The notes beneath the pieces are model-generated. The model was given only the letters and a program-made list of their open reading frames with translations. It was not told the DNA's origin and did not search any database. A stretch of 64,000 bases of DNA from a virus: IMG/VR virus record IMGVR_UViG_3300021371_000004, positions 35,049 through 99,048 of that record; one strand, written 5' to 3'. Positions 43,173-47,036 of the stretch are shown here, in pieces; the stretch's first letter is position 1; each line of letters begins with the position of its first letter. Made by a program: the position numbers and the translations under genes.

Positions 43173-43679
43173 ATGAACAAGACTTATAAAGGCAAATACA
43201 AAGTCAAGAACCCCAGCAAGTACAAGGGTGACACATCAAACGTGGTCTACAGAAGCAGTTGGGAAAGAGATGTTATGTCCTACCTTGACGACCACGCTAG
43301 TGTCTCCGAGTGGAATAGCGAAGACTTCATAATAAAATACTTCTATGATGTAGATAAAAAATATCACAACTACCACATGGACTTCTGGATAAAGTTCACT
43401 AATGGAACTGTTCTCCTGGTCGAAGTTAAACCCGAGAAACAAACAAGACCACCAAAGTCAAAGAACCCTCGTTCGAAGCGAGGTCTGAATGAAGCATTTG
43501 CTTATATCAAGAACCGCAACAAGTGGGAAGCAGCAGAGAAGGTAGCGAAAGATAACGGTTATGGTTTCGTTATCTGGACCGAGATTGAGTTGACCGAGAT
43601 GGGAATACTCAAGAAGTCTCCAGGGAAAATCAAGAAACTAAAACCGCATCCACCATTCAAAAAGAAAAAGAAAACCTAA
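43173..43679 (+). CDS. 4: Head completion nuclease-like protein gp4
   Basis: 168 residues (T4 gp4 150). It is the only plus-strand gene of the window. The core matches gp4 (head completion, also called gene 50/65): YKGKYKVKNPSKYKGDTSNVVYRSSWERDVMSYLD (split over 5-39) and a nuclease-like motif with HMDFWIKF...VLLVEVKPE (68-88), where Asp69, Glu85 and Lys87 form the PD-(D/E)xK-type set. The strongly basic C-terminus may bind DNA. It diverges from the gp48-like gene and its stop overlaps convergently with the tape measure stop by 3 bp. Confidence 0.93.
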   Translation: MNKTYKGKYKVKNPSKYKGDTSNVVYRSSWERDVMSYLDDHASVSEWNSEDFIIKYFYDVDKKYHNYHMDFWIKFTNGTVLLVEVKPEKQTRPPKSKNPRSKRGLNEAFAYIKNRNKWEAAEKVAKDNGYGFVIWTEIELTEMGILKKSPGKIKKLKPHPPFKKKKKT

Positions 43680-45502
43680 CGCCGCCCAGTTCGAGACGAA
43701 GTCCGGTCACTCTTATCAACAGCAGAAGGTGCACCAGAGTTCACAGTTGTATTATTCGAAACATTGCTTGTCGATGGTGCGTTGATGGCGACCGTTCCTC
43801 CCGAGTTACCTTGTGCGAGTCTCGCGTTACCGTCATTCATCTTGGTCGTTCCGGTCGCCATTTGCTGTGATGCCATGGCAGCATTTCCGAATCCAGAAAT
43901 AGGCGATGCTGCGAAGTCATTATATGTTATAATTTCTCCGCTGGTAGGATCCATTTGGTTGGAGTGTTGCGCCATGGGCATCCCAGTTGCGGGGTCACGA
44001 CCGATAGCGGTTTTGATTGTACCCGTCTTTGCTCTGCGTCTAGGGTTAGATGGAGTCTGATTGGACTCCCTAACCGCAGCAGCTGCTGCTTCTGCGGGAG
44101 ACATATCTGGGTGCACCCTGTGGAGCAGTTCTAGTTCATGGGCGGTCAGAGGTGGTGGTTCATATAGCGGATCGTCTGGGTGTCTGGTATCACCTGCGGG
44201 TGCATACACGCCAGTTTGGGTAATTTTTTGGTATTGCGTTTTGACTGTTCGCATATCTTCATCAGAAAGATCGTCGTCTTCGATTATTGCCTGCAGTTGT
44301 TCTGCTGTGGCAGTTTCCAATCCTTCCTCATTCAAGCTGCTGTTTACACGAGGCAGCCAGGTTTTATCATACAGATTACTCTTCTTCGCCTGTTCCATTC
44401 CGCTCAATTCTGTAAGATCTTCTTCAGATAACTCTTTGATCTTTGCCTTACCTAGGATGTCATCTATTCCGAACAAAGAAAATGCGCCAGTAATCAATCC
44501 CCGAATGAGGTCTTCAATACCGTCGACAATTTTAGCAAACAACTCTGTGAAACTAAAACTATCGAGTAGTGTCTCAACCTGATCAAACCCCATCTTTCCT
44601 GCCAACCAAGAGATGGCACTCTTCACCAGATCCATAGGAATTGTGATGATTTTACCGATACCTTTGATTGCGCCCGCCATTCCGGCAATGATTTTCGAAA
44701 AGAGGTTTCCGCTGTCGTTCATGAATCCATCAATTGCGCCGGTAATGGTATCCCATGCGACAAGAAACACTCCTAGGAAAGGCACAAATCTACCCAGTCC
44801 CTTCCCTATTTGGAAAAATATCTTAAAGAACGTTTGTGCAAATTCGAAAATGGTACCAAACAAGCTGGTGACCAGTTTTAATGGAGCGAATATTCCCTTA
44901 GAACTACTTTTTATCGACTCTATAAATGGAGAGATTGATTTTCCGAGGTTTTTGAATTCATCGAGTACTGTACCTAACTTCTTAATAAACTTATTCTTTG
45001 TGAATGCCTGTTTGATGGATTTAGCGATTTTCGAGACTTGCTTTCCGATCATTTCTGGCACTGCTTTTATAGTATTTGCTATGGCACCAAAGTAGGATTT
45101 TACAGAGTTTCTGAGTTGGGATGCAAGTTTTTTTACGTTCTCGGGCATAAACTTTGCTATGACCGTGGCAATCGAAGCAGATACTCCGGCGATAACACCC
45201 GCTGCAAGTCCCGACAGAGCACCGAGCAACATACCAGACATCTTTGCTGGGTCGTCTACCACCAAATCGGGGTCATCTATAACTATATCCTTTTTTGCCC
45301 CACTAGATTTTCCTAATTGAGGTGTTGTCCGACTCGCCAATAAAGCGTTCTTCTTCGCTTCATCGAACATAGCGTTTAGCGTATAGTTTATGCGACCCAA
45401 TTCCTGTAGAATATCATATAGAATGCTACTCTGGTCTTGTTCTATAGCAACAAGTTCATTAGAGATCTGTAGTTCTTCTACGATGGCAGTTAATGTCGAC
45501 AT
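43676..45502 (-). CDS. 29: Tape measure / tail length protein, gp29-like
   Basis: 608 residues, nearly the length of T4 gp29 (590). It is rich in Ala, Ile, Lys and Phe, with long amphipathic helices and several hydrophobic stretches: SGMLLGALSGLAAGVIAGVSASIATVIA at about 88-115, GRFVPFLGVFLVAWDTITGAIDGF around 240-263. Such features are usual in tape measures, which fill the tail tube and set its length. The C-terminal 180 residues are Gly/Ser/Thr/Asn-rich. It has a late promoter element 26 nt upstream and follows the chaperone pair gp26-gp51, as expected for a tape measure. Confidence 0.88.
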   Translation of the reverse strand: MSTLTAIVEELQISNELVAIEQDQSSILYDILQELGRINYTLNAMFDEAKKNALLASRTTPQLGKSSGAKKDIVIDDPDLVVDDPAKMSGMLLGALSGLAAGVIAGVSASIATVIAKFMPENVKKLASQLRNSVKSYFGAIANTIKAVPEMIGKQVSKIAKSIKQAFTKNKFIKKLGTVLDEFKNLGKSISPFIESIKSSSKGIFAPLKLVTSLFGTIFEFAQTFFKIFFQIGKGLGRFVPFLGVFLVAWDTITGAIDGFMNDSGNLFSKIIAGMAGAIKGIGKIITIPMDLVKSAISWLAGKMGFDQVETLLDSFSFTELFAKIVDGIEDLIRGLITGAFSLFGIDDILGKAKIKELSEEDLTELSGMEQAKKSNLYDKTWLPRVNSSLNEEGLETATAEQLQAIIEDDDLSDEDMRTVKTQYQKITQTGVYAPAGDTRHPDDPLYEPPPLTAHELELLHRVHPDMSPAEAAAAAVRESNQTPSNPRRRAKTGTIKTAIGRDPATGMPMAQHSNQMDPTSGEIITYNDFAASPISGFGNAAMASQQMATGTTKMNDGNARLAQGNSGGTVAINAPSTSNVSNNTTVNSGAPSAVDKSDRTSSRTGRR

Positions 45503-45535: not shown

Positions 45536-45727
45536 CTACCGCATGGCATTTCTTTGTTCGATCTTTTCGTTTTCTTCTTTGATGTATTCTATAAGAAGTG
45601 CAACATAGACTGCCCTCTCCCAAGGTAACATATTATCCAACTCCGTTAAACTATAGTTATGATGCTGCATCAAAGAGAAGTTGGTCTTGTAATGGTTTAC
45701 AAGGTTATCATGGGACAGGGTTACTAG
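45536..45727 (-). CDS. 51: gp51-like tail chaperone extension made by -1 frameshift
   Basis: 63 codons in the -1 frame relative to the gp26-like gene, from the shift site to a TAG at 45538. The sequence (NHYKTNFSLMQHHNY...LPWERAVYVALLIEYI) is compact and conserved in type with small proteins following gp26 in marine T4-like phages. The first ATG is 19 codons in, lacks a ribosome site and would remove the N-terminal helix, so I infer that it is expressed as a gp26-gp51 fusion of 299 residues. The arrangement mirrors the lambda G/G-T chaperones of the tape measure. The shift itself is unproven. Confidence 0.75.
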   Translation of the reverse strand, partial: LVTLSHDNLVNHYKTNFSLMQHHNYSLTELDNMLPWERAVYVALLIEYIKEENEKIEQRNAMR

Positions 45728-46434
45728 AAAAAATCAGATAACCCTTTCAGTTGCAGAGAATTCTCTGCACCGCATTCTTTGCAGTTGAATTTAATATCTT
45801 GTTTTAAGGCGGGGACATTTTCCAGAAATTTCGTCAAACCAGATAACTGATCAGCGGTCATAGATTCTACGAATTCTAGAAGTTCCTCTTTGGTTTGACT
45901 CGCGGCATCGATACGTTCTTCTGTTGTCATTACAGATGCTATGCAAGCGACAATGGTTTCCAATGCAGCACCCATGTCTCCCTCATCCGCGGAATGCATG
46001 CCGGAAAGTGAATCATATGTCGGGTACTTCATCTCGACAGATATAGTATCGGTCAACTGCACAATATTCGAACCCTTCGGTACATCAACATTCAGGGAGT
46101 CGAGGTCAACGGTGTATTCGTTTTGCTCTTCGCAGGAATTACATTTGATGAGAATAGTAGAAGTTTCGCCGACAGACTTTGCCCGAACCTGAGTAAACAG
46201 GTACTCAATATCAAAGGTGGCGAGTTTTTCCACAGAGATGTTTGACTTCGGGTCTATGCACGCATTCAGGGTGTCGCTCATAGCAGACAAACACATTTGC
46301 ATGTCTTTGGACTCAAACGCCTGTAGCAGAATCTTTTCTTCTTTGACCAGGTATGGTCGGTATTTGACGCGCTGTCCCGTTGAAGGGATTGTCACAGAAA
46401 AATTTAGGGTTTCGTTAATCTTGGGTAATGCCAT
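45724..46434 (-). CDS. 26: Baseplate hub assembly protein / tail chaperone gp26-like
   Basis: 236 residues (T4 gp26 208). The family pattern is seen with RVKYRPYLVKEEKILLQAFES (22-42), a CxxC pair at Cys98/Cys101 and another at Cys218/Cys221, which probably bind a zinc. The middle has DSLSGMHSADEGDMG and a helical C-terminus. It ends in GAT TTT TTC TAG, where the last codons form a -1 slippery heptamer. It precedes the gp51-like frame and the tape measure, so I interpret it as a tape-measure chaperone. In T4, gp26 and gp51 are separate genes that act in hub assembly. Confidence 0.87.
   Translation of the reverse strand: MALPKINETLNFSVTIPSTGQRVKYRPYLVKEEKILLQAFESKDMQMCLSAMSDTLNACIDPKSNISVEKLATFDIEYLFTQVRAKSVGETSTILIKCNSCEEQNEYTVDLDSLNVDVPKGSNIVQLTDTISVEMKYPTYDSLSGMHSADEGDMGAALETIVACIASVMTTEERIDAASQTKEELLEFVESMTADQLSGLTKFLENVPALKQDIKFNCKECGAENSLQLKGLSDFF
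45727..45733 (-). promoter_or_regulatory. -1 ribosomal slippery heptamer T TTT TTC
   Basis: Minus-strand T TTT TTC, phased as X XXY YYZ with the gp26 frame and followed immediately by the gp26 stop TAG. Slipping back one base gives TTT TTT CTA GTA and enters the open gp51-like frame. No strong downstream hairpin is obvious by eye. Confidence 0.75.
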
Positions 46435-46454: not shown

Positions 46455-47036
46455 TTATTTAATAAGGTAGTTCGAGTATGTCAATGATACTGTAAACTCT
46501 AGCGCAGCAGTCTGTGCTTGGTTATTTAGGTCGATCTCTGCCAAGGATGTTGGGTATGCTTTCACCAACTCTGCAGCATACGCAATATTGCCCAACTTAT
46601 CAAGTTGGTGTATTGTAACGCTCTTTGCATAGTTGCCGTGAAATCCTGCCGTGAATGGTGGCGTGGGCGATATGATACAATCCATCCACTCTTGGAAGTA
46701 TTTTCTTGCAGTGTATCTATTAGTCAGGTAGAAAGTCAAGTTAATATCACCAAGGGCATAACCATTGGCGACTTTGATTTGTTCCATGCCGATATTCCTA
46801 TCAGCAACAGAAAGGTTCTTCCCAGGGATTCTAGCAGAGGTGCAAAGATCTGTTAATTCACTTCTCCCCAATGTGTCTTCTGCTCTCGACCCATCTGGTT
46901 TTTGGGTGCCAGCAAGGTTCGGGAGCAGGACGCGATAACGGTTGCTTGATGCAATTCCGCCTTGATCCTCTATAAGACTCCGCAGGTTATTTGTGCTGAA
47001 CCTTCTGTAATCGTTTGGACCGTAGTCTATGCTCAT
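46455..47036 (-). CDS. Tail tube-like protein (gp19/gp54 fold)
   Basis: 193 residues, a second relative of the tail tube family. YRVLLPNLAG (33-42), a LCTSARIPGKNLSVADRNIGMEQIKVANGYALGDINLTFYLTNRYTARKYFQEW region (65-118, broken here), and the closing QTAALEFTVSLTYSNY strand match the layout of gp19-like proteins. T4 gp54 is a tube initiator with a related fold, encoded near gp48 and gp29, so this is a candidate tube initiator or terminator. It overlaps the preceding gene as ATGA and lies just before gp26. Confidence 0.78.
   Translation of the reverse strand: MSIDYGPNDYRRFSTNNLRSLIEDQGGIASSNRYRVLLPNLAGTQKPDGSRAEDTLGRSELTDLCTSARIPGKNLSVADRNIGMEQIKVANGYALGDINLTFYLTNRYTARKYFQEWMDCIISPTPPFTAGFHGNYAKSVTIHQLDKLGNIAYAAELVKAYPTSLAEIDLNNQAQTAALEFTVSLTYSNYLIK

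Follow-up and report, generated by a model that had tools for sequence, protein, structure and literature searches.

A probable -1 programmed frameshift joining the gp26 and gp51-type frames of a tail assembly chaperone gene in a T4-like phage

Genes and features of the locus

The window, by which we mean the whole 64,000-nt stretch of DNA analyzed here, comes from an IMG/VR virus record of 99 kb and looks like DNA of a T4-like marine myophage. Read along the minus strand, a tail tube-type gene is followed by a gp26-like gene, by a 63-codon extension in the -1 frame, and by a tape-measure-like gene. The tail tube-type gene (gp19/gp54-like; 46455..47036) matches the phrog_45 tail tube profile (E = 3.8e-33) and lies directly upstream of gp26. 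The gp26-like gene (45724..46434), the candidate short tail assembly chaperone (TAC-N), encodes 236 amino acids, and matches both PF12322 T4_baseplate (E = 8.1e-57) and phrog_150 (E = 8.8e-60). The tape-measure-like gene (43676..45502; 608 aa) starts 33 nt past the -1 ORF with a ribosome site of dG -4.0. Its matches to two "tail length tape measure" profiles, phrog_167 (E = 5.2e-7) and phrog_1272 (E = 1.7e-6), are weak, and gp26 has a tape-measure gene downstream on the strength of those matches (E 5e-7), with the tail tube gene upstream. As a separate observation, gp26 (window 45727-46434) has two invariant CxxC pairs that may form a zinc site, one at residues 98/101 and the other at 218/221.

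The 3′ end of gp26, read directly on the minus strand, is ...CTG AAA GGG TTA TCT GAT TTT TTC TAG. This places the heptamer T TTT TTC (45733-45727) in the phase that tandem -1 slippage needs, as the first-pass annotation had it, and the zero-frame stop TAG (45724..45726) comes immediately 3′ of it. From the heptamer to a stop at 45538-45536, the -1 frame (45536..45733, minus strand) reads FF plus 63 codons, LVTLSHDNLVNHYKTNFSLMQHHNYSLTELDNMLPWERAVYVALLIEYIKEENEKIEQRNAMR. This gp51-type extension (TAC-C) matches phrog_634 over its residues 2-62 with E = 1.7e-27, which confirms the earlier description of an open, compact and family-like frame of 63 codons; the label of the phrog_634 profile is "baseplate hub assembly catalyst". 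Also as previously described, there is no start with a ribosome site before codon 20; the first start-like codons are the TTG and ATG at codons 20 and 21, and these lack a ribosome site too (duplex dG about -0.6). Hexamers of TTTTTT in this phase are rare in the window: we find only 5 in the 19,132 codons of its long ORFs, and the one in the heptamer is the only one near a gene end.

Conservation of the heptamer in relatives

The loci of relatives were fetched from IMG/VR using gp26 patterns that exclude the gp26 3′ end, and thus ignore the site. After removing sequences with >80% identity, we retained a non-redundant set of 96 loci, window included. An in-phase T TTT TTN is present at the gp26 end in 96/96 loci, versus 0/450 within ten codons of the ends of other ORFs in the same loci. 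The offset from stop to heptamer goes from 0 to 9 codons: the heptamer ends at the gp26 stop in 59 loci, one codon earlier in 36, and nine codons earlier in 1. The expectation that heptamer and stop position would both be conserved among relatives is borne out, the stop keeping close to the heptamer.

The codon before the Phe codon of the heptamer is GAT in 57 loci, AGT in 25, AAT in 6, TCT in 4, and GCT in 4. That is, the base preceding the Phe codon is always a T, even though three other amino acids substitute for Asp; and the second codon of the heptamer may also encode Leu (TTA/TTG). Because the residue before Phe and the second Phe both vary while the T persists, neither of them explains the pattern. 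By codon usage, TTT makes up 66% of Phe codons and GAT 72% of Asp codons. The probability of the pattern by synonymous chance is ~10^-38 over the 96 loci, a naive and only indicative figure that assumes independence and ignores phylogeny, and 10^-8.4 over 23 clusters with <45% identity, also indicative and assuming independence.

A run of Ts invites another explanation, in which it is the RNA polymerase that slips, leaving some transcripts a base longer or shorter. Slippage on T runs is indeed used by phages and bacteria in other genes, and over half of the relatives have TTTTTTT or longer. However, in the window and in 38 further loci of the set of 96, the run stops at 6 Ts and the next base is C, A or G, which is short for efficient slipping. 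Moreover, what is conserved tracks the ribosomal phase X XXY YYZ, the third base of the codon ahead being invariably T, and the SD-like element described below, at a dnaX-like spacing, suits a ribosomal shift. We consider transcriptional slippage extremely improbable.

Coding and starts of the -1 frame

In the -1 frame, pN/pS is 0.093 for codons 3-19 of the ORF, which precede the usual first ATG, and 0.108 for codons 22-45, while it is >1.4 in the other frames. Judged from these substitutions, purifying selection on the -1 frame is the same ahead of its usual first ATG as in the remainder.

This result bears on the possibility that gp51 is a separate short protein, made from an internal ATG at codon 21 or 34 of the -1 frame, and that the heptamer is there by chance. 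GenBank does annotate gp51 as its own CDS. And in the window, the ATG at codon 34 is the first one with a fair ribosome site (dG -6.1), a GGAG 9 nt upstream of it; site and ATG together occupy 45629-45644. On the other hand, protein-level selection reaches all the way up to the heptamer, which is itself present in all of the relatives, and the ribosome site is absent at the candidate ATGs in 99% of relatives. At codon 34, only 12% of relatives have a fair ribosome site, and 88% lack it. The first ATG of the -1 ORF wanders from codon 3 to codon 34 across relatives, and is absent in one locus; the mean dG of the ribosome-site duplex at these ATGs is -0.4, compared with -5.8 at the gp26 starts, in agreement with the earlier suggestion that relatives would lack a well-formed downstream start. 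Even the annotated starts differ among phages, placed in GenBank at codon 4, 5, 6, 8, 12, 18, 21 or 28 of the -1 ORF, and some records omit gp51. From the sequence comparison, an internal start is disfavoured by conservation upstream of every start, and we regard it as very unlikely.

Two side observations concern these starts. The codon-34 ATG of the window, which is not conserved in relatives, could initiate a 31-aa product. In S-WAM1 (L232, 1500-1700) and other cyanophage records, gp51 is unannotated despite an intact -1 domain.

Ribosomes could also complete gp26, terminate, and start again close by, which would yield two proteins whose ratio is coupled. In S-PM2, P-SSM2, S-SSM2 and some IMG/VR relatives there is an ATG within ~5 codons of the heptamer, and since that ATG comes a few codons past it in S-PM2 and P-SSM2, reinitiation is possible there. 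But the window and most relatives have no ATG until codon 20 or later, and yet these loci share one conserved protein sequence starting at the heptamer. We give reinitiation almost no weight relative to a frameshift.

Possible stimulators of the shift

An SD-like AAAGGG (45742..45747, minus strand), 8 nt upstream of the heptamer, is a proposed stimulator. In 83/96 loci there is an AGG whose end lies 9 or 10 nt ahead of the heptamer. The SD-like stretch has a mean dG against the anti-SD of -6.05, compared to -4.9 in synonymous recodings. Within this stretch, GAG accounts for 23/36 Glu codons versus a background of 26% (p = 2e-6), and GGA/GGG for 57/94 Gly codons versus 43% (p = 5e-4), p-values that are both inflated by relatedness. 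The objection that the SD-like element is a coding artefact is partly true, as the dG of the synonymous null indicates, yet GAG and GGA/GGG are still enriched. The SD-like element with its synonymous codon bias is possibly a new detail. The site resembles that of E. coli dnaX, where an SD-like element precedes an X XXY YYZ heptamer by ~10 nt. It differs in that dnaX is another gene with another heptamer, and in that the strong hairpin close to the dnaX site has no clear counterpart here.

Downstream, the 66 nt 3′ of the site fold more stably than synonymous recodings, with a mean z of -1.31 versus -0.11 and -0.62 for controls. The window has a perfect 7-bp hairpin, CTTGTAA-ACCA-TTACAAG (45686..45703, minus strand), 23 nt 3′ of the heptamer, as a possible, unproven stimulator. 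We discarded the view that a conserved hairpin downstream is a proven stimulator: the one in the window appears in a subset only (~25/95 MFE folds), and lies 23 nt from the heptamer. RNAalifold found no consensus structure in the relatives for the region 3′ of the heptamer. Pair counts in the hairpin region are larger than in slid controls, but the region also encodes a conserved peptide.

From the sequence, we infer the SD-like element and the 3′ fold as possible stimulators. We put at about even odds a reading in which, across T4-like phages, the shift is driven in the manner of dnaX by a conserved internal SD-like element (RGG ending 9-10 nt before the heptamer), possibly helped by 3′ RNA structure.

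Other phages and exceptions

The -1 domain is carried by >600 GenBank records, plus many metagenomic contigs. We observe the heptamer and the layout also in S-PM2, P-SSM2, P-RSM6, S-SSM2, S-RIM2, S-WAM1, Melnitz, Mosig and C48C1, as well as in phiM12, RHph_I1_18, Vibrio QD01, Aeromonas AS-szw, Cronobacter LPCS28, OLIVR6 and RL38J1, and in the GC-rich (56%) PhiW-14. In Mosig and RHph_I1_18, gp26 extends 8-9 codons past the heptamer, and the heptamer is still at the start of the -1 domain. That selection keeps the heptamer where the -1 domain begins, and not at the gp26 stop, is a joint reading with the SD-like drive, and it could equally well turn out either way.

We did not find this heptamer in Ackermannviridae (Maynard, PP35), Vibrio K362, or RHph_TM39. 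In Ackermannviridae (L058 3770-3960, L227 ~3290) and Vibrio K362 (L064 ~3710), the last residues of gp26 before its stop are ATTTTCATT or CTTTTCAAG, and there is no heptamer of the X XXY YYZ form. In Maynard and K362 the -1 frame is open and includes a PWH motif, and perhaps a weaker slip site is used. In the Bacillus phage SP-15 (L065, 3700-3930), the gp51-type domain follows gp26 in the +1/-2 frame, past a GAA TTT TTT CAC run, which suggests a -2 or +1 shift instead of a -1 shift.

T4 gp26 and gp51

In T4, gp26 and gp51 both match PF12322, gp51 over its residues 1-201, and residues 147-246 of gp51 match phrog_634. On these profile matches, T4 gp51 consists of a domain of the gp26 type joined, in one frame, to the C-terminal domain that the -1 extension also encodes. 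Thus, T4 makes from two genes what this phage would make from one. The hhalign comparison of our gp26 alignment with T4 gp26 has E = 3.9e-12, and that of the -1 frame alignment with T4 gp51 206-245 has E = 1.2e-5. In addition, positions 232-278 of the phrog_150 (gp26) profile match the -1 ORF (E = 3.9e-6); a profile that runs into the -1 extension indicates natural fusions in the gp26 family. The proposal that gp26/gp51 is the equivalent of lambda G and G-T finds support in the gene order and in the T4 gp51 fusion.

An AF2 model of gp26 (pLDDT 84) has strong structural matches only inside the gp26 family. With Foldseek, the HK97 tail assembly chaperone 2ob9, a protein of the expected kind, is one of the few PDB hits to reach a fair probability (0.60-0.63), but its E-value of 0.46-1.2 is not significant, and searches of PDB sequences with the gp26 profile or the -1 frame profile gave no matches.

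Proposed mechanism

The heptamer is in phase and conserved, the -1 frame is selected upstream of its starts, ribosome sites are absent, the gene order fits, and T4 gp51 is naturally fused in frame; because of these observations, we favor a programmed -1 frameshift. The gp26 and "gp51" frames are very probably a single tail assembly chaperone gene, with a short and a long product. Most ribosomes would end at the gp26 stop and produce TAC-N, of 236 aa. A minority, slipping back by a base at T TTT TTC, would continue for 63 codons, producing TAC-NC, of ~299 aa, whose C-terminal domain is the one named gp51. The fusion would span the junction ...LKGLSDFFLVTLSHDN... If lambda gpG/gpGT is a guide, the tape measure protein, encoded by the next gene, would be coated by TAC-N in many copies and TAC-NC in few, with the C-terminal domain bringing in tail tube subunits, and both forms would depart before the tail is completed. 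We infer the slip itself, its efficiency, its stimulators and the chaperone role from the patterns given above.

Relation to known systems

The conserved frameshift of siphophages was reportedly described by Xu, Hendrix and Duda in 2004. The lambda gpG/gpGT system is similar to the one proposed here in that a chaperone gene located between tail tube and tape measure genes has a -1 shift close to its end, and in its short and long products (PMC5009743). It differs in the slippery site, which here is T TTT TTC; a sequence relationship is not expected. In that 2016 paper (PMC5009743), T4 is named as the exception. The TAC locus of Pakpunavirus and Vandenendeviridae is also that of a myophage TAC-N/TAC-NC, with a -1 shift at a polyT proposed and argued from conservation, but it belongs to another phage family, and has GTTTTT instead of TTTTTT (PMC12846349).

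The phage in the window is a new member of the T4-like chaperone group. Vladimirov, Gautam and Davidson are said to have found in 2022 that frameshifting is conserved in several T4-like groups, and that T4 uses genes 26 and 51. The T4-like tail assembly chaperone mechanism is already published (Vladimirov, Gautam and Davidson, Virology 2022, 566:9-15). Hence, recasting gp26 and gp51 as tape-measure chaperones, as the first-pass annotation did, is a supported reading but not a new one. A passage of the PRFect paper cites Vladimirov 2022 for T4-like phages with short and long forms as separate genes, and a passage of the Adele paper refers to it on -1 signals of the polyT kind within TAC-N genes of T4-like phages. 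Our locus shares with the chaperones of that work the families PF12322, phrog_150 and phrog_634, and the short/long pair; it differs from T4 itself, where the long form is a separate in-frame gene (51), in having it as a -1 extension of gene 26.

What this means is that a very large set of T4-like phages would have one frameshifted chaperone gene in place of the separate "baseplate hub assembly catalyst" shown in databases, and that the annotated starts of gp51 are probably wrong in most of the GenBank records that carry the -1 domain.
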